From assembly GCA_026874595.1 (NCBI GenBank), contig CM049310.1, positions 39,561,558 to 39,625,557 on the forward strand: 64,000 nt of DNA. The letters are read 5' to 3'. The first letter of the stretch is position 1; the number at the start of each line of letters is the position of its first letter. Positions 1,315-13,540 of this stretch are shown here, piece by piece. The position numbers and the translations under genes were made by a program. The DNA comes from Sipunculus nudus. Lineage: Eukaryota > Annelida > Sipuncula > Golfingiida > Sipunculidae. The notes under the pieces are model-generated. The model did not search any database. It saw only the letters and a program-made list of their open reading frames with translations, and was not told the DNA's origin.

Positions 1315-1882
1315 TTAACACAAGTCCCTTCGGCTCTGGCCCAAGTCCAGATCACATATAATATCCATGCTTATGTCAGGTAAACAGTCTTCCCAGGATC
1401 TGAGCGAAATAATCTCCTCCAAGGACAACGCACTTTTACAGATGGCAGGGTTCGGTTGAGACGAACAGCAAGTTGACGGTGTGATGTCACCATCTACCGG
1501 TAGAGGGCAGCCTCTGTCTGTCGTCTGCTGCGCTTCTGGCGTTGCCATCTTCACAAGAAGATGCTGGTTGTGGCGCCCTCTGTCCTCGCTCCTCTTCAAG
1601 AAGTCCAGGGAATTTACTGTAATCTATGTGATACTCTGATCCGACTTTGATAGAGAGCGGCTGGTCTACTGGCACGTAGGGTTCTGTCGTCTGTCCTGTA
1701 TGTGACGTCATTTCGAGTTTCATCGTGAATTTATAGTGACTGTAATAATGATGGCCCAAGCCGTCTGTAAATTCCGCATGGTTATGTGCAGTGAAACGAC
1801 GCGAGTCACCCTGAAGTAAATAATCCCTTGACAGAGATGTCGTCTGCTGAAATGAATAAGTTGACATGAGTAGAGCTGCCAT
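1315..1882 (-). pseudogene. family copy A, frameshifted (short intronless gene of unknown function)
   Basis: This is one of nine members of the window's own gene family, and I do not recognise the product. Read on the minus strand it starts MAALLMS at 1880-1882, passes a Tyr/His-rich N-terminal part, then the family core VPVDQPLSI and YHIDYSKFPGLLEEERG. One extra base at about 1562 (AAGAAGATGC on the plus strand, where relatives read AAGAAGAGC) then breaks the frame. The rest is recognisable in the next frame from LLVKM to the acidic block LSLEEIISLRSWEDCLPDIS and ends RDLC, one residue longer than most copies. The tail resembles E and I more than D and H. With the frameshift the product would be 131 aa and lack the C-terminal block. 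It is probably a recent pseudogene, although a sequencing error cannot be excluded. Confidence 0.8.
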
Positions 1883-2029
1883 AGGATCACCTGTACCACT
1901 CGATCCTTCAATGAATTGAGTGTGAAACGTAGTTTCGTCGCCTATTGGTAGTTATTTCCACTCTGCAGAATTATCGACGTGTATGTTTCGAGGTTCTGAA
2001 ATCATCTGATGAGGAATTAGGTGGATTAT

Positions 2030-2981: not shown

Positions 2982-3240
2982 GATAACTCATTAACTAATC
3001 CCAAAAGAGCAAAGAGAGCGGGGACTCTATTAAGGCGTGACCATGGGTTGTCCAGTGTGAGAACTGGGGTTTCTTGTAAGAACCAAACAATGTGTGATGG
3101 TAATTATTAACATGATCAAAGGAGTTATGGTTTGGCAGAATTGAAGCGTGACCGAGAAGCTGTCTGCCTTTACTTTATGTTGTTTACAAACTACCTTTCG
3201 TCTCAGTTTACTTCAAAGATTAATAAACTAATAAACTTAG
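2982..3240 (-). repeat. solo copy of the family upstream module, no gene attached
   Basis: This stretch repeats the distal part of the upstream module (AGCAAAGAGAGCGGG, GGCGTGACCATGG, AACCAAACAATG, GCGTGACCG and the following TTGTTTACAAACTACC). It has no TATA/CCAAT part and no gene next to it. It lies behind copy A's own module in the same orientation, so it is either a duplicated regulatory segment or the remnant of a lost copy. Confidence 0.6.
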
Positions 3241-3572
3241 GGATCACTACAGAAGGACTGATTCGGTGTTTACAATTACACGTACAGGAAAGCAATGAGT
3301 TAAATTTATCAAATTATCAAAATCAGATTTTATTCATTTTTTCAATGCAGAACTTTTTATTTAACTTTTAGAACTTGTTGTATTTTGCAACAAAGACAAT
3401 AAGTAATGATATTATTTAGTCAAATAATAATGCAATATTAATTTTATTAGACAAGTGGGTTTTAATCTTATGTCAAATCATAATCATAATACAAAAAAAA
3501 TTATTAAGAGACTGAAATTCTCCTCATAATCTAACAATTTATTTTAATTTGGTTCAATGTAATGAGATTATG

Positions 3573-6485: not shown

Positions 6486-6555
<70 letters not shown>
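6486..6555. repeat. (CT)n(AC)n compound microsatellite downstream of copy B
   Basis: On the gene's strand this reads (GT)n then (GA)n, about 220 bases beyond the stop of copy B. The same compound tract follows copies C and F, and a GA tract follows D, G and H. Confidence 0.95.
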
Positions 6556-6774: not shown

Positions 6775-7371
6775 TTACAAATCCCTCCGGTTCTGTCCCA
6801 GGTCCAGGTCACAGATCAAGTCCACACTGATATCAGGCAAACAGTCCTTCCAGGACCTGAGAGAGATAATTTCTTCCAAGGACAACAAACTCTCGTGGCT
6901 GCTCTCATTCTCACTGACCGCAGGATTCAGACGCGACAAACAGCAAGTTGACGGTGTGATGTCACCATCTACCGGTAGAGGGCGGCCTCTGTCTGTCGTC
7001 CACTGCGCCTCTGCCGTTGTCATCTTCACAAGTAGAGCTGGTTGTGGCGCCCTCTGTCCTCGCTCCTCCCCAAGAAGTCCAGGGAATTTACTGTAATCTA
7101 TGTGATACTCTGATCCGACCTGGATAGAGAGCGGCTGGTCTACCGGCACGGAGGGTTCTGCTGTCCGCTCTGCATGTGACGTCATCTTGAGGTTCACCAT
7201 GGGTTCGAATTGGCTGTAACAGTAGTGGTCCATGCCGCCTCCGTAATCTTCATAACTGTATGAGTTGTAACAATGCGAGTCACCTTGAGGAAAGTAATCC
7301 CTAGAGAAAGATGTCATCTGCTGTAATGAATGAATGAGCATGACATGAGTAGGGCTGCCATATTTTCGCAT
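6775..7371 (-). CDS. family copy B, rebuilt N-terminus, LINE in its promoter
   Basis: This is a 198 aa reading frame of the unknown family. From about residue 17 (QQMTSFSRDYF) it matches relatives throughout: Tyr-rich segment, VPVDQPLSIQVGSEYHIDYS, KFPGLLGEERG (Gly where others have Glu), LLVKM, and the acidic end block with SWKDCLPDIS (Lys for Glu). The family ATG with GCAGC still exists at 7359-7361 but is out of frame with the body, so an indel has hit the N-terminus. Translation would have to start at 7371 (MRKYGS) or at an internal Met at 7341. The TATA position has changed to TATTAG, and the LINE at 7564 cuts the promoter. The body is open, but expression is doubtful. Confidence 0.65.
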   Translation of the reverse strand: MRKYGSPTHVMLIHSLQQMTSFSRDYFPQGDSHCYNSYSYEDYGGGMDHYCYSQFEPMVNLKMTSHAERTAEPSVPVDQPLSIQVGSEYHIDYSKFPGLLGEERGQRAPQPALLVKMTTAEAQWTTDRGRPLPVDGDITPSTCCLSRLNPAVSENESSHESLLSLEEIISLRSWKDCLPDISVDLICDLDLGQNRRDL

Positions 7372-7423
7372 TTAACTCTCAATATTCCAATTAAATGACT
7401 GTACAGTGTAGTTCTGTTGGTAG

Positions 7424-8590
7424 TTGCAAGTTATATCCACTCTGCGGAATTTTCGACGCTTATGTATCGAGGCTCTGAGATCATCTGTTGAGGATTCACT
7501 GGGCAGTTTCCTAATATGTTGGCTGCCGTCTTGTGAAGTGCTCAGAGTTTGTCATATACAGCCCCTGATTGCGGATGTCCCCCTCTCATTTGACAATCAA
7601 TCAATTGTTGAACACTTACAGTCAGAATATAAGCTTGAGCTACGTTCTGAAATAAAATATCAATATGAAAGGACAAAAGAAGGACTCCTGACACATTACA
7701 AAAATGGAAACAGATTTGTTTTTGTGAAATCGCCTTTGGCAAACCCACTACCACGAAATGGACAAATTGGACCATTTCAGTGCAGATTTTTTCATAATGA
7801 TCAGTTCAAGGACCTGACCTGTATAGTATGTCACAAAAAAGGTCACAAACCAGGTAGCAAATATTGTGAGCATTACATACCTGATCAATCAATGGAAATT
7901 GTGTCTGGCCATGATGATATTCTCTCCAACTCCTTCCCTTGTTCTTTCGAAATGTACGGGAAAACTTTTAAAAGCGCTGAACATGCGTTTCAGTATAGAT
8001 GCGCATATGAATTGGACCAAGATGCGTTGGCCAATGAAATTGAAAACGCAAAACATGCAGGAGTTGCCAAGAGAATTGGCCAGATCTTGCACTCTGATGA
8101 ATCTGTGGACAGACATGAAATTGAAATTTTGGAAAATATCCTGTTAGAGAAAGCAGAACAGATCCCTGAATTCAAAGAAGCTCTCATGAAATCAGGTACA
8201 GCACCGATCGCCCTCACAGTTCAAGATAAACAGTGGGGAACAGGGCTGTCCAAATTTCTCTCCAGAGTCACCAAGGTGGATGCATGGCCTGGTAGGAACT
8301 TATATGGTGCCACACTTGAGAAAATAAGATCCTTTTATAGTGCGGAAAATCATGACAGAGAAAAAGCAACTAGCAATATAGCCTCAGTACAAGACCAAGA
8401 GTCCAACCAGGGTTTTCAAGGCATGGGAACACCGAAACGAAAACTATCTGAACAGTCACCTAATCAGCAAAAACATACAAGCTTAAGAGTTTCACTGAAA
8501 TCTCGCAGATATGACTTTAGCCCACAATCTGAACAAAGAGGTGTCGTCAAAGATCGTGTTTTTGAAGAAAGTGATGGAGAATATTATTAA
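7424..8590 (+). CDS. LINE ORF1: CCHC zinc knuckle plus NADAR (YbiA-like) domain, chimeric 5' end
   Basis: The open frame is 388 aa. Residues 1-46 are antisense host promoter DNA; LINE sequence starts at about residue 47-48. Residues about 48-105 look like the usual ORF1 N-terminal fold, but I am not certain of this. A zinc knuckle follows: C133-x2-C136-x4-H141-x6-C148. Residues about 165-305 form a NADAR/DUF1768 domain: LSNSFPCSF, then EHAFQY (E186), a helical KHAGVAKRIGQ part, EALMKSGTA, WGTGLS (271-276) and PGRNLYGATLEKIR. NADAR domains act on ADP-ribose-linked or related N-glycosidic substrates; bacterial members reverse guanine ADP-ribosylation. The tail (306-388) is basic and Ser/Gln-rich with a PKRKL patch that could be a nuclear signal. 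The stop is 43 bases before ORF2. The domain is uninterrupted. A role in nucleic acid binding is likely; the enzymatic role inside a LINE is inference. Confidence 0.85.
   Translation: MQVISTLRNFRRLCIEALRSSVEDSLGSFLICWLPSCEVLRVCHIQPLIADVPLSFDNQSIVEHLQSEYKLELRSEIKYQYERTKEGLLTHYKNGNRFVFVKSPLANPLPRNGQIGPFQCRFFHNDQFKDLTCIVCHKKGHKPGSKYCEHYIPDQSMEIVSGHDDILSNSFPCSFEMYGKTFKSAEHAFQYRCAYELDQDALANEIENAKHAGVAKRIGQILHSDESVDRHEIEILENILLEKAEQIPEFKEALMKSGTAPIALTVQDKQWGTGLSKFLSRVTKVDAWPGRNLYGATLEKIRSFYSAENHDREKATSNIASVQDQESNQGFQGMGTPKRKLSEQSPNQQKHTSLRVSLKSRRYDFSPQSEQRGVVKDRVFEESDGEYY
7500..7563 (-). promoter_or_regulatory. proximal promoter remnant of copy B, cut by the LINE
   Basis: Comparison with copies A and H shows the proximal block (AAGTGCTCAGAGTTTGTCATATACAG) continuing up to GCC at 7561-7563. 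There, relatives go on into AATGAGGACGC, the CCAAT box and its flank. Instead, LINE sequence begins. The distal module resumes at about 12557. Confidence 0.8.
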
Positions 8591-8633
8591 CAAAGTAAAA
8601 AAAAAAAAATAAAGGATATAAATACGAAAGACG

Positions 8634-10259
8634 ATGGAAAACCACATGACAGATTTGAATAGACAATTAAATATATGTTCATTAAATATAAGAGGTCTTA
8701 ATAATTATGATAAAAGGAAGAAATTATATACATGGTTAACATATAGAAATGTTCATATTACTTTTTTGCAAGAAACCTATTGCACTATAGTATCATCGAA
8801 TATAATTAATAGTTCATGGAAAGGTAAAATATTTCATAGTCATGCATCGTCACCACATAGCAGAGGTGTTGCAATACTATTATCAGATAAAATAAATATA
8901 AAAATTTTAAACATTCATTGCTGTAAAAATGGTAGAAAAATACTGTTGAATACGGAATACAAAGGTAAAAAATTATGCTTAGTATGTGTTTATGCACCGA
9001 ACAAAGAAGGGGAACGGAAACTTTTCTATAAGGACTTAGAGAAATGGTTAATGGAAAAAAGTGATTCTTTAAGATGTATCATTATGGGAGGTGATTTTAA
9101 TTGTTGTCTGCAAGATGATGATAGGAGCACGATGTCACATATGGAAGACCAAAGTAGAATACTATTGAAAAATATGTTAAATACTTTAAAGCTAACTGAT
9201 ATATGGAGCTGTTATGGCAGGTTAAATAACCGATTTACATGGTCAGAAAGGAATGTAAGCAGTAGACTTGACTATTTCTTTATCTCTAATTCTGAACTAT
9301 GGAACTGCTTAAATTATGACTGTGAATACGTACTGTCAGAGCAAAAAGAACATCGGCTGTCAGATCACAAAGCTATAAAGATATGTCTGGATTTTAAAGT
9401 AAGCATTAGAGGGCCGGGATATTGGAAACTAAACGTCAGCCGATTAAATGATCCAATTTTTATTGGGCTGATGAAAGACTGTATTGCCTCTAGTTACACA
9501 CGTTATAAACACAATTCTGCGAGGCTAGCTTGGGAAATGATAAAAATTAACATAAAAGAAGCAAGTATTAACTACTCTAAATCGAAAAGAAAAGAAAAAA
9601 ATAGTAGATTAGCTATGATAGACAAAAGGATTAAACAAATTTCACAGCTTATTAGTTTAAATTCAATAGCTAAGGATATAGAAAGATTAAAAGAAGAAAA
9701 GCATTTACTTGAAATAGAAAAAAATGAAATATTTGATAATATAACAAAAGGTGCTCAAATACGTAGTAGAGCTAATTGGATTGAACAGGGGGAAAAGAGT
9801 ACGAAATACTTTTTCAAGCTGGAGAATAAAAACCAGTCAGATAACACTATTTATAAAATCAGAGAAAACAATAATATAATAGAAGATGATGAAGGAATAC
9901 TAAATCATATAAATAATTATTACAAAAACTTATATACATCACACAATCCATGTGTGAAAGAGATACAGAAATATTTAAATAATATAAAATCTTTAAATGT
10001 TTTAAGTGATGAAGATAAAGATATATGTGATGCAGAAATGACAATGGATGAAATTAAAATTGCTGTAACTCAAATGAAGAAAAACAAGTCCCCAGGATTA
10101 GATGGCATCCCTATTGAATTCTACGTGACTTTTTGGGATGACCTAAAAGAGTTTCTATATAATGCTTTTATAGAATCGTATCGTCACAATAAATTATGTT
10201 CTACCATGCGTACAGCTGTAATATCAATATTATTTAAGTCAGAAAGGAGACAAATATAA
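8634..10259 (+). pseudogene. LINE ORF2 part 1: AP-like endonuclease and RT N-terminal region
   Basis: This part is 541 aa, starting MENHM. The endonuclease spans about residues 10-255 and keeps every expected motif: SLNIRGLN, FLQETY (E47), VCVYAPN (Y120), GGDFN (D154, N156), RLDYFF (D213) and LSDHKAI (D244, H245). These form the metal-dependent nicking centre used for target-primed reverse transcription. A Lys-rich linker follows, then the start of the reverse transcriptase with KKNKSPGLDGIPIEFY near residue 490. A single-base loss at about 10237-10245 (in the GAAAGGAG stretch) leads to a stop after FKSERRQI, while the YRPISL motif continues in the next frame. Confidence 0.9.
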
Positions 10260-11238
10260 TTTACATAATTATAGACCTATAAGCCTCTGTAACACTGATT
10301 ATAAAATATTAGCACAAGTATTAGCAAATAGATTGCAAAATATTTTACCAAAAATAATTGACCCAGATCAGACCGGATATATTAAAGGTAGATACATCGG
10401 AAATAATTTACGTCTTATTACGGACATATTTGAATTTGCTAAGAAATATAATAAAGAAGGGGGGTTAATTTTTCTCGATTTTACAAAGGCTTTTGATAGC
10501 TTAGAATGGAATTTTATGTTTGAAACTTTTAAAAAATCTAATTTTGGTCAGAACTTTATCAACTGGATTAAAACTATTTACAATAACCCACTTTTTACTA
10601 CAAAAAATAACGGATGGTTATCTTCAAAAAATGTAATGAAAAGAGGTATACGACAGGGCTGTCCAGTATCTGCATTACTTTTTATTATTTCAGTTGAAAT
10701 ATTGGCACAAAAAATACGAACAAATGATAATATTAACGGCTTTATTTTTGGCAGTAAAGAAATAAAACTTAGCCAATATGCAGATGATACTACTTTGACT
10801 CTGAGAAATGATAAATCAGTTTCAACTGCCTTGAAGGAAATTTATGAATTTGGAAACCTAGCTGGTTTAAAACTAAATATGGAAAAAACTACCGTTTTAG
10901 ATCTGGGAAATAATAAGAGGCATAAAGATCCAATAGGAGTAAAATGGACAAAACAGCCAGTGAAATGCTTAGGAATTTGGTTTGGATATGATGAGAAATG
11001 TATAGAAAAACTAAACTGGGAAGACAAAATTGATAAAATAGAGAATAACATAAAAATTTGGAAGTTGCGGAATCTAAGTTTAATTGGAAAAATATTAATT
11101 GTTAACACAATACTTTTATCCAAAATAGCATTACAAGCTTCGGTACTACCAATTCCGGACGGATTCGAAAAAAGAATAAACAAAGTTATTTATAACTATA
11201 TTTGGAATAAAACAGAAAAAATTAAAAGGTCAGTTTAA
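10222..11238 (+). pseudogene. LINE ORF2 part 2: reverse transcriptase palm
   Basis: This continues ORF2 in the next frame from GDKYNLHNYRPISL; the first Met is at 10333. It holds the catalytic core: GYIKGR, FLDFTKAFDSLEW (first Asp of the triad), RGIRQGCPVSALLF, and QYADD at 10774-10788 with both metal-binding aspartates. It ends at a stop at 11236-11238 after KIKRSV, again by a frameshift (between 11226 and 11237). The sequence resumes as LIRDIEEGG in the third frame. All key residues are present, so damage to this copy is limited to the indels. Confidence 0.9.
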
Positions 11239-12458
11239 TAAGAGATATAGAGGAAGGAGGTCTTAAAATGATCGATATTAATAGTTGGTTACTTTCATTT
11301 AAAGCTGCATGGGTACCAAGAATACTTTATGAAGAAAATAAATGGAAACATATCTTTAAATATTATTTACACAGCTGTGGGCTCCATACAGACTGGGTAT
11401 TTAACACAAACTGTGTATCAATAAAGCAGTTTTGCATATTGAAACATATACCCCAATTTTATAGAGAAGTGATATTAGCTTTTAATAAATGTAAGGTTAA
11501 AAGAGAGATTACTTCACCAGAAGATATTTTAAAACAACCATTATGGGGTAACACTGAATTTATGATCAATAATAAATGCTTATATTTTAAAGCCTGGGTT
11601 GAAGAAAATATAATTTATATTCGAGATGTTCTAAACAATGATGGCACTTTTATATCAGTCAGCAACCTTTTAAAGAAATTAAAAATAAAACACAATTGGA
11701 TATCGGAATATATACAGGTTAAAAATGCCGTTAAAAAGACTTTTTCTCTATTTCCAAAAGAACAATTCATAAAGAAATCGGTTTATCTAGAACACACATA
11801 CACGCTTGGTAAACATAATATTAATATATATAAGAAAAAATCAAAATTCTTTTACAATGAATTAGTAAGAAGAAATATGTCTTCTCCCAAACATCAAATT
11901 ATTTTGCAGGAAAAATTTAAAAAAGAATTAATAAGTTGGACAAAAGTCTATCAGTGTAAAATTAAAAACATGCCAACGAAAAAACTATCAGAATTTAATT
12001 TCAAATTATTACATGGCATTATTCCAACAGGTACCAAAATGTCCAAATGGAACTCAAATATTTCCCATCTTTGTAAATTTTGTAATGTAAATGAAAATGC
12101 TGAACATATGCTGTATGAATGTAAATTATTGAGGGAGATATGGGAAAATATTATGAAAATACTTCATATCCAGATAAACTGGGAAACGCTCGTAATTGGT
12201 CATAAATACGCACTGGATGGTAATTTTGTAAAAATGAACAATTTCATAATATCAGTAACTACGTATGCCATTTTTAAGTACAATATGCATTGTAAATATA
12301 ATGAAATTAGCCTATCAGAGAGTAAAATACGACAATATGTATCGCAAGATATTATGAAACATGTATATATTCAGAAATATTTAAAATACCCTTACTTGAA
12401 TCAAATTTTCATTGATAGATTTATAAAAATTAAAGATAGTATTTTATCTGTATGTTAA
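11226..12458 (+). pseudogene. LINE ORF2 part 3: RT thumb and C-terminal CCHC finger
   Basis: This is the C-terminal part of ORF2, open from about 11226 (first Met 11268) to 12458. It begins with GGLKMIDINSW, typical of the segment just after the palm in L1/Tx1 elements. Counting from that Met, a zinc finger lies at C269-x2-C272-x7-H280-x4-C285, within HLCKFCNVNENAEHMLYEC. The preceding KLLHG-IPTGTKM resembles the segment ahead of the finger in related elements. The last 100 residues are Lys/Ile/Asn-rich. Confidence 0.85.
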
Positions 12459-12507
12459 TATTGAATGTTTATTTATTTTTCATTATATTCTTAAATGTTA
12501 TTGTGCT

Positions 12508-12551
12508 GACAGATAAAAATGAATGTATTCATTCCATCCCCTCTATCTGTC
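12508..12551 (+). other. nested hairpin in the LINE 3' end
   Basis: GACAGATA (12508-12515) pairs perfectly with TATCTGTC (12544-12551). Between them ATGAAT-GT-ATTCAT (12519-12532) is a second perfect stem. The structure lies within the last 50 bases of the element. Some LINEs require a 3' stem-loop for recognition by their reverse transcriptase; that role here is inference. Confidence 0.55.
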
Positions 12552-12556
12552 GGAGT

Positions 12557-12800
12557 GGTCAAACAACCGAGCGTGTTGATAACTCATTAAAAGAACGAAG
12601 AGAGCGGGTGTTGTCGTCGTCATTCAGGCGTGACCATGGTTTGTCTGCTGCGAGGACCGGGTGTTTCTTTAGAAAACCAAACAATATTTGATGTTAATTA
12701 ATATGACAACTTAGGGACATAATTATAGTAAGACTAAGCTGAAGCGTGACCAGGTGTGGTATCTTCACGTTATGTTGTTAACAAACTATCCTTCATCTTA
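12557..12800 (-). promoter_or_regulatory. distal upstream module of copy B, displaced 5 kb by the LINE
   Basis: From TCAAACAACCGAG onward this matches the distal module of other copies: AACTCATTAAAAGAACGAAG, GAGAGCGGG, GGCGTGACCATGG, CCAAACAATATTTG, GAAGCGTGACC and TTGTTAACAAAC. It belongs to copy B but is now separated from its TATA region by about 5 kb of LINE. Confidence 0.8.
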
Positions 12801-13540
12801 AAGGATTTCAAAGAGTAAAGTGATCTAAAAAGTTATTACAACATAATGGCTAATTCAATGTTAATGATCAGAATAATAAATTAATAATAGATGGAATAAG
12901 TTTATTGATTAATAGTACATAATTCATAATTACAACATAGTGTAATAATTACTGAAATCTAGCAATAAACTCGTAATGCTATGAAATCTATACTGCTGAC
13001 CGACACAAAAAGTCAATAGGCTTATTTCCTCTGCATTCCCGCAGTCTCAAGATGATTAACACTAGTGTCATAAAATTACTTCACAACTATGAGGAAATTT
13101 AGCACTGAGTGACATAATTAAAAATACTCTTACCCCTAAATTATCACAATTTCATTCTCTGCAGGACAATCTACAAGTAGAATTAACATTTTACTATTGT
13201 AATAATAATAATTATAACATTTATAAACATCTCCTTACAACTTTTCGATAAGCAGTCCACTTTCGCATGTATACATGCGACTTTGTAACTGTACGCCCCC
13301 TCTTAGGTGGATTATGGTGTTCTCCATCATATTGTAAGGACAGCTTTTCCTGAACTCTGGATGACGGTTCGTTCAATGGATCAGGGATTATAAATTGAGG
13401 ACGTCCAGGTGCCTGAATACAAACATAATACTGTGGTTCCTGAAACATTATAGTTCTCTGAATATTCATTGACATTTTTATTTTGTATAATTATTGCTGT
13501 TCATTTTTAGTATATATTTTATTAAGGCCAGTTTGTTCAG
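12801..13540. other. AT-rich spacer with one unassigned small frame
   Basis: On the minus strand 13221-13475 is an 84-codon frame (start MSMNIQRT, containing PQYYVCIQAPGRPQF and KRGRTVTKS) with a non-random look. I cannot assign it. The corresponding segment at 30350-30510 has lost 17 bases and the frame, so it is not maintained there. It could be an exon or transposon relic. Confidence 0.3.

Follow-up and report, generated by a model that had tools for sequence, protein, structure and literature searches.

The window, a 64,000-bp stretch of the Sipunculus nudus genome, holds a LINE fragment on its forward strand (7568–12559). An open frame called as ORF1 (7424–8590, forward strand, 388 amino acids plus stop) runs into it from the upstream flank. 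Its codons upstream of ~7568 are host-derived, and the remainder is the C-terminal part of a 449-amino-acid frame that is present in other copies (L010 and L011). Consistent with this, matches to ORF1 elsewhere in the genome start at query residue 45 or later, and residues 7–50 match nearby host duplicates. The LINE-derived part begins with a second RRM-like domain (7568–7807, forward strand), followed by a zinc knuckle, CIVCHKKGHKPGSKYC (CX2CX4HX6C, 7820–7867, forward strand), found by a pattern scan of the window locus (L009) and the near-identical L010. The knuckle lies immediately 5' of a NADAR domain (Pfam match at 7919–8332, forward strand; the modelled fold spans 7883–8356).

ORF2 is represented on the same strand by an endonuclease domain (Exo_endo_phos by Pfam, 8676–9368), a reverse transcriptase in a different frame (RVT_1, 10261–10980) and a C-terminal zinc-binding region in the third frame (zf-RVT, 11931–12143). 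With endonuclease and reverse transcriptase in ORF2 and ORF1 upstream, the element belongs to the L1/Tx1 group, Tx1 being the name given to oyster elements in PMC12477816. The nearest solved structure to the window reverse transcriptase is human L1 ORF2p.

Both ends of the element are truncated. Over 7568–10084 it matches L010 at 99.3%, and its flanks match a duplicate locus, L059, at 96.9% (6903–7569) and 98.3% (12556–13200, where the compared stretch ends). L059 is the same site minus the LINE, and the insertion occupies the place of ~22 of its bases that have no counterpart in the window. All 11 other copies read at this end (L062–L072) run ~43–45 bases beyond the 3' limit of the window copy, into an A-rich tail; comparison with L059 revealed neither an A-rich tail nor a target-site duplication at the joints of the window copy. 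Of 41 matches to the 3' end, 38 (one of them the window copy itself) lie in LINE sequence and three in host flank. An intact window copy is ruled out by the comparisons with L059 and L010. Host DNA flanking the LINE has further local copies (contig 5 near 39552000, 39555000 and 39637000), which supply the undisturbed site, and a long (CT)n/(CA)n microsatellite lies upstream of the element (window 6486–6554).

A NADAR domain shared by LINE families

A preliminary description of this DNA proposed that a zinc knuckle is joined to a NADAR domain within a LINE ORF1. This proved correct: the domain scores 64.5 bits against PF08719 (gathering cut-off 35.1), its model has a YbiA-like fold, and the knuckle stands directly upstream. 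The fusion is also a trait of the family rather than of one copy. The 1.43-Gb genome contains at least 119 matches to ORF1 (106 best of 268 candidates scored; matches are pieces, several per locus), which span near-identical copies to families at ~45–54% and ~30% identity, and at least 141 matches to the NADAR domain (150 best of 204 candidates scored). Protein databases yielded 40 relatives at E ≤ 0.001, 37 of them with a Pfam NADAR entry, and three of the database relatives are named from Pinctada imbricata. Repeated genome matches and database relatives rule out a chance or one-copy accident.

Some relatives dispense with the domain. Two LINEs of this genome (L073 and L074) carry the front part of ORF1 and two knuckles without a NADAR, as does the database protein P0039, so the NADAR is an optional C-terminal module. 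In L073 and L074, endonuclease-like and reverse transcriptase frames come after ORF1. A second type of NADAR-bearing ORF1, L1-like with a coiled coil, comprises P0044, P0045 and P0050 and, in this genome, L006 (type assigned by eye); Pfam reports a NADAR and weak coiled-coil-type matches in the three proteins. In locus L006 the L1-type ORF1 (886–1935) is followed by an RVT_1 fragment (3110–3379), and its type-mates are L005, L008, L083, L085 and L094. Phylogenetic analysis included 55 of 62 aligned rows; the window row, which is nearly identical to L010, was left out together with L034 and five partial proteins. Neither a single clade of all LINE NADARs (p-AU 0.306) nor one uniting the five L1-type rows (p-AU 0.245) was rejected; independent captures of NADARs by LINEs thus lack support from the tree.

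NADARs also occur in other contexts in this genome. In one repeat family (L039–L042 and L046) a GDSL/SGNH hydrolase domain comes after the NADAR, and the catalytic set is kept; a search with this family gave 115 genome matches, including SGNH-only and other NADAR matches. In its member L040, a frame ~0.8 kb upstream has a PHD match that passes the cut-off and a weak C48-protease match that does not. A stand-alone NADAR frame in L001 (349–978, reverse strand) adjoins a weak GDSL-like frame (1372–1965, forward strand; E 0.0014, below cut-off). The NADAR frame of L055 lies on a 76-kb contig (contig 133) whose neighboring frames look bacterial by eye (tRNA synthetase-like and lipoprotein-like), and this contig is possibly contamination or a symbiont.

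Catalytic residue loss and constraint

Residues are numbered as in the Phytophthora nicotianae NADAR structure 8bau, following PMC11543638. Aligned to 8bau, the window NADAR retains E43 (the Glu at 7979–7981, forward strand), D130 and W133, so the pocket is not wholly lost. However, K50 (K95 of the E. coli C7 NADAR) is replaced by Cys (8000–8002, forward strand), R79 by Gln, W89 by Val and R93 by Glu, and E125 is missing. Ala-Leu occupies positions W-8/W-7 (8210–8215, forward strand), where relatives have the catalytic Glu, and there is no acid anywhere from W-10 to W-4. The Glu is at W-7 in many relatives versus W-8 in 8bau, and the strand register here is uncertain.

The loss extends well beyond this copy. 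The genome provided 42 LINE loci of the two-RRM type, drawn non-randomly from the retrieved matches and grouped by eye. An acid at W-8/W-7 occurs in none of the 35 that are readable there, and Lys at the K50 place in only 5 of 37 readable. The acid is kept by the other NADARs of the genome: stand-alone (7/7), SGNH-linked (6/6 readable of 7) and L1-type (6/6), the last of which have lost E43 (4/4 readable). Most database relatives have the full set: of the 41 two-RRM-type ORF1s examined, all retain E43, 38 retain Lys, and 34 of the 36 readable at the acid site carry the acid. The exceptions at that site are P0004 and P0001; the latter is nearest to the window family and carries His. Within the window family, W-8/W-7 reads Ala-His in 10 of 15 readable copies and Ala-Leu in the other five, the window included.

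How much each residue should weigh can be gauged from characterized enzymes. In the E. coli C7 NADAR, changing the K50 and E125 equivalents cost efficient guanine de-ADP-ribosylation, and the Lys (K95) is essential, although Arg in its place retained activity in vitro (PMC11543638). Because of this tolerance, only the acid is used to judge families b, c and d, in which Arg stands at the Lys place. Phage NADARs with His at the acid site are active (PMC11125620), so the Ala-His copies of the window family are not necessarily dead by that residue alone. Even in these copies, the Cys that replaces Lys would remain a mark against activity. The tree places P0041, which has both Glu and Lys, next to the window family, and a single clade of the acid-less L010, P0001 and LINE families b, d, e and f is not rejected (p-AU 0.141). 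The number of acid losses is thus not fixed by the tree.

Despite these losses, the domain is maintained. Between L010 and L030, dN rises from 0.39 in the N-terminal part of ORF1 to 0.56 in the knuckle and NADAR and 0.93 in the C-terminal tail, and the corresponding values between L048 and L052 are 0.40, 0.56 and 0.87. For L030 and L034 they are 0.20 (N-terminal part) and 0.24 (knuckle and NADAR), with dS saturated in both regions and the NADAR value overestimated; L034 has a frameshift inside the NADAR, and its C-tail comparisons (25 codons) are artefacts that were left unused. Identity between the window-family ORF1 and P0001 is 60% in RRM1, 67% in RRM2, 68% in the knuckle, 56% in the NADAR and 21% in the tail. 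These regional contrasts in dN and identity indicate that the NADAR is almost as strongly constrained as the RNA-binding half. The preliminary description had called for a dN/dS comparison across copies, which was informative only in part: near-identical pairs (L010–L011 and L030–L033) have too few changes, and the simple NG86 distances show dS saturation for most comparisons of LINE families, so the case for constraint rests on the regional dN contrasts.

TRIM-like host loci ending in a knuckle and a NADAR

A genome search with L047 uncovered five loci with frames that end in a LINE-type zinc knuckle and a NADAR. Four are on contig 5: L050 (28224098–28226017), L057 (28906531–28908558), L058 (28916994–28918676) and L047 itself (28928131–28930158). 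L057 is 90% identical to L047 over the whole length, and L058 matches it only from residue 96, with one stop within the match. The fifth, L054, is on contig 3 (12314595–12316289). A Pfam scan of L047, L050 and L054 placed RING, B-box and NADAR domains above the cut-offs in L047 and L050. In L054 the scan returned the NADAR only; this locus matches residues 8–332 of L047, the RING/B-box part, at 26% and does not pass the RING and B-box cut-offs. All five loci have a CX2CX4HX6C knuckle before the NADAR. The acid is missing from all five, and Lys is kept in four. No protein annotated by Pfam with NADAR together with RING/B-box came up in searches of protein databases, in which coverage of such animals is uncertain, and we found no report of such a combination in the literature searched, where coverage was limited.

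Synonymous and nonsynonymous divergence was compared for pairs covering four of the five loci (L047, L050, L057 and L058). The dN/dS ratios of the RING-coil part and the tail are 0.15 and 0.12 for L047–L050, 0.17 and 0.22 for L047–L057, and 0.19 and 0.22 for L047–L058. By these ratios (0.12–0.22), the tails in the contig 5 cluster are under purifying selection. Divergence is also mosaic: dS is 2.26 in the front and 0.49 in the tail for L047–L058, and 0.10 in the front and 0.47 in the tail for L047–L057. The pattern suggests exchange of tails among the TRIM-NADAR paralogues.

The three TRIM rows in the tree cluster (99/92 support), adjoin the window family and P0041 (94/75) and nest inside the clade of two-RRM-type ORF1s (99/99); the branch that includes them and leaves LINE families d and e outside has 91/78 support. 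Most simply, a TRIM-like gene would have acquired its knuckle and NADAR by capturing the latter half of a LINE ORF1. The resulting proteins are candidate LINE-derived sensors or restriction factors.

Possible roles of the LINE NADAR and relation to known systems

What does the NADAR contribute to the element? The LINE family is L1/Tx1-like, with an ORF1 protein of the order RRM, RRM, knuckle(s), NADAR. Judging from their folds, the RRMs and knuckles would bind the RNA of the element, which would put the NADAR at the C-terminus of ORF1 in the LINE RNP. As most database relatives keep the Glu-Lys-Glu set with which other NADARs hydrolyse ADP-ribose off guanine, the domain probably descended from an active NADAR and may still hydrolyse in those relatives. 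The families of this host have lost the acid, and the window family has lost the Lys as well. With modest confidence, we regard the window-family NADAR as a binding module that is maintained, most likely does not hydrolyse, and goes back to an active hydrolase. Selection may keep it for a nucleotide or ADP-ribose ligand that it still binds, or for a protein partner. There is some precedent in the nematode protein SNA-3, in which NADARs are needed in an RNP and one of the three lacks the residues (PMC9303266). The preliminary description had listed mere binding by the fold as an alternative, and this suits the window family better than hydrolysis does.

The main proposal of that description was that the domain removes ADP-ribose as a counter-defence. 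In its full form, an active hydrolase would strip the RNA, cDNA or target DNA of the element of ADP-ribose linked to guanine, or of a signal derived from NAD, in opposition to a host ADP-ribosyltransferase. Several observations favor such a role. Of the hydrolase families in a tested panel, NADARs alone reversed guanosine-base ADP-ribosylation of RNA (PMC11833690), six edible clams have a guanine-specific DNA ADP-ribosylating activity, with CARP-1 cloned from one of them (PMC11209040), and NADARs recur in RNA virus polyproteins, including those of bivalve picornaviruses (PMC9503650). Given that NADARs reverse the mark on RNA and clams place one on DNA guanine, an ancestral counter-defence role of the LINE NADAR is a reasonable conjecture, and de-ADP-ribosylation remains plausible for the database relatives that keep Glu, Lys and Glu. 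A search of this genome for pierisin/scabin-like guanine ADP-ribosyltransferases gave no match, but the control was silent too, in 14/14 genomes. For the window element the enzymatic reading is not supported by the residues present, with the acid missing from every readable two-RRM-type locus and Cys in place of Lys, and we consider it unlikely here. That the domain instead aids RNA processing of a transposition intermediate, as suggested for the oyster and Ectocarpus elements (PMC12477816), finds a precedent in the trans-splicing function of SNA-3 (PMC9303266). The portions of the literature consulted describe no RNA-processing activity for any NADAR, and the residue loss in the window family speaks against an enzymatic step, making this proposal a distinctly doubtful one. 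The catalytic losses, and the NADAR-less L073, L074 and P0039, which show that such LINEs can do without the domain, are also what one would expect of a functionless passenger whose loss is pending. The regional dN contrast argues against this, as does a fold shared by families in which roughly half of the residues differ, and we deem it very unlikely.

A separate question is the direction of exchange between LINEs and host. The knuckle-NADAR unit may have arisen in TRIM-like genes and then been captured by a LINE; TRIM and LINE tails form one lineage, and a tree in which the 41 LINE rows are held together to the exclusion of TRIM is not rejected (p-AU 0.106). The nesting of the TRIM rows among the LINEs is therefore not proof of direction, and the inference rests mainly on the knuckle, which looks native to ORF1. 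It occurs in CX2CX4HX6C form in 42 of the 43 database matches P0001–P0043, including the NADAR-less P0002 and P0039, and in L073 and L074. Pattern scanning of NADAR proteins of the stand-alone, SGNH-linked and L1-type kinds (P0044, P0045, P0046, P0050, L001, L039 and L006) did not find it. Together with the nesting, this renders an origin in TRIM-like genes improbable.

A bolder extension of the binding-module reading links the two sides. The TRIM-like proteins would be putative E3 ligases built from a LINE knuckle and NADAR, serving as bait or decoy that recognises the NADAR-LINE RNP or an ADP-ribose-type ligand, and the LINE NADAR, its enzyme activity lost, would have been retained as an interface for binding in that conflict. 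This is a tentative scenario and we lean against it, but were TRIM-NADAR genes found to act on LINEs, they would offer a rare example of a LINE protein turned into a restriction factor. ZAP and HELZ2 are reportedly subjects of work on action against L1.

The fusion of a NADAR to a LINE ORF1 is, as such, already known. PMC12477816, the only report of a NADAR in a LINE within the literature searched (coverage limited), describes NADARs in the Gypsy Pol of Ectocarpus and, drawing on Repbase, in several oyster Tx1 families, where the domain is part of ORF1. In that same limited literature we found no report of the residue loss or of NADAR-less sister ORF1s. The S. nudus loci add residue loss combined with constraint and, unexpectedly, a host TRIM-like counterpart of the unit. 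The Tx1 LINEs of Crassostrea gigas share with the window element both the L1/Tx1 affiliation and an ORF1 that carries a YbiA-type NADAR (PMC12477816). As far as families compared by description only can be distinguished, the S. nudus elements differ in the acid-less site of the readable two-RRM-type loci, the NADAR-less relatives in the same genome and the host TRIM-like genes that share the unit. The Ectocarpus Gypsy is likewise a retroelement with an acquired NADAR, but it is an LTR element of a brown alga with the domain at the N-terminus of Pol (PMC12477816). Compared with the NADARs of P. nicotianae (8bau) and E. coli (YbiA, 2b3w), the window domain differs at K50, R79, W89, R93 and E125. 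RNA viruses provide another case of an RNA-based selfish element that links NADARs to its replication proteins, although in positive-strand virus polyproteins and with ADP-ribosylated macromolecules as the proposed target (PMC9503650). SNA-3 resembles the LINE protein in having NADARs, one of three residue-less, in an RNP-associated protein, and differs in being a host trans-splicing protein with three NADARs and no retroelement (PMC9303266).

NADARs are tied to selfish elements and conflict. Since one clade includes both keepers of the catalytic set and, in one genome, losers that are under constraint, enzymatic and non-enzymatic readings are separable by comparison. On the host side, the primate TRIM5-cyclophilin fusions illustrate the swapping of a C-terminal recognition domain, in that case one that came from a host gene and binds viral capsid. 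The TRIM-NADAR proteins share the exchanged C-terminal domain of a TRIM, but theirs would derive from the retroelement's own ORF1. The nearest precedent we found for a host gene made from a LINE ORF1 is mammalian L1TD1, for which defence against L1 has been proposed (PMC4161310); it is almost wholly L1-derived, whereas TRIM-NADAR combines a piece of ORF1 with a RING/B-box protein.
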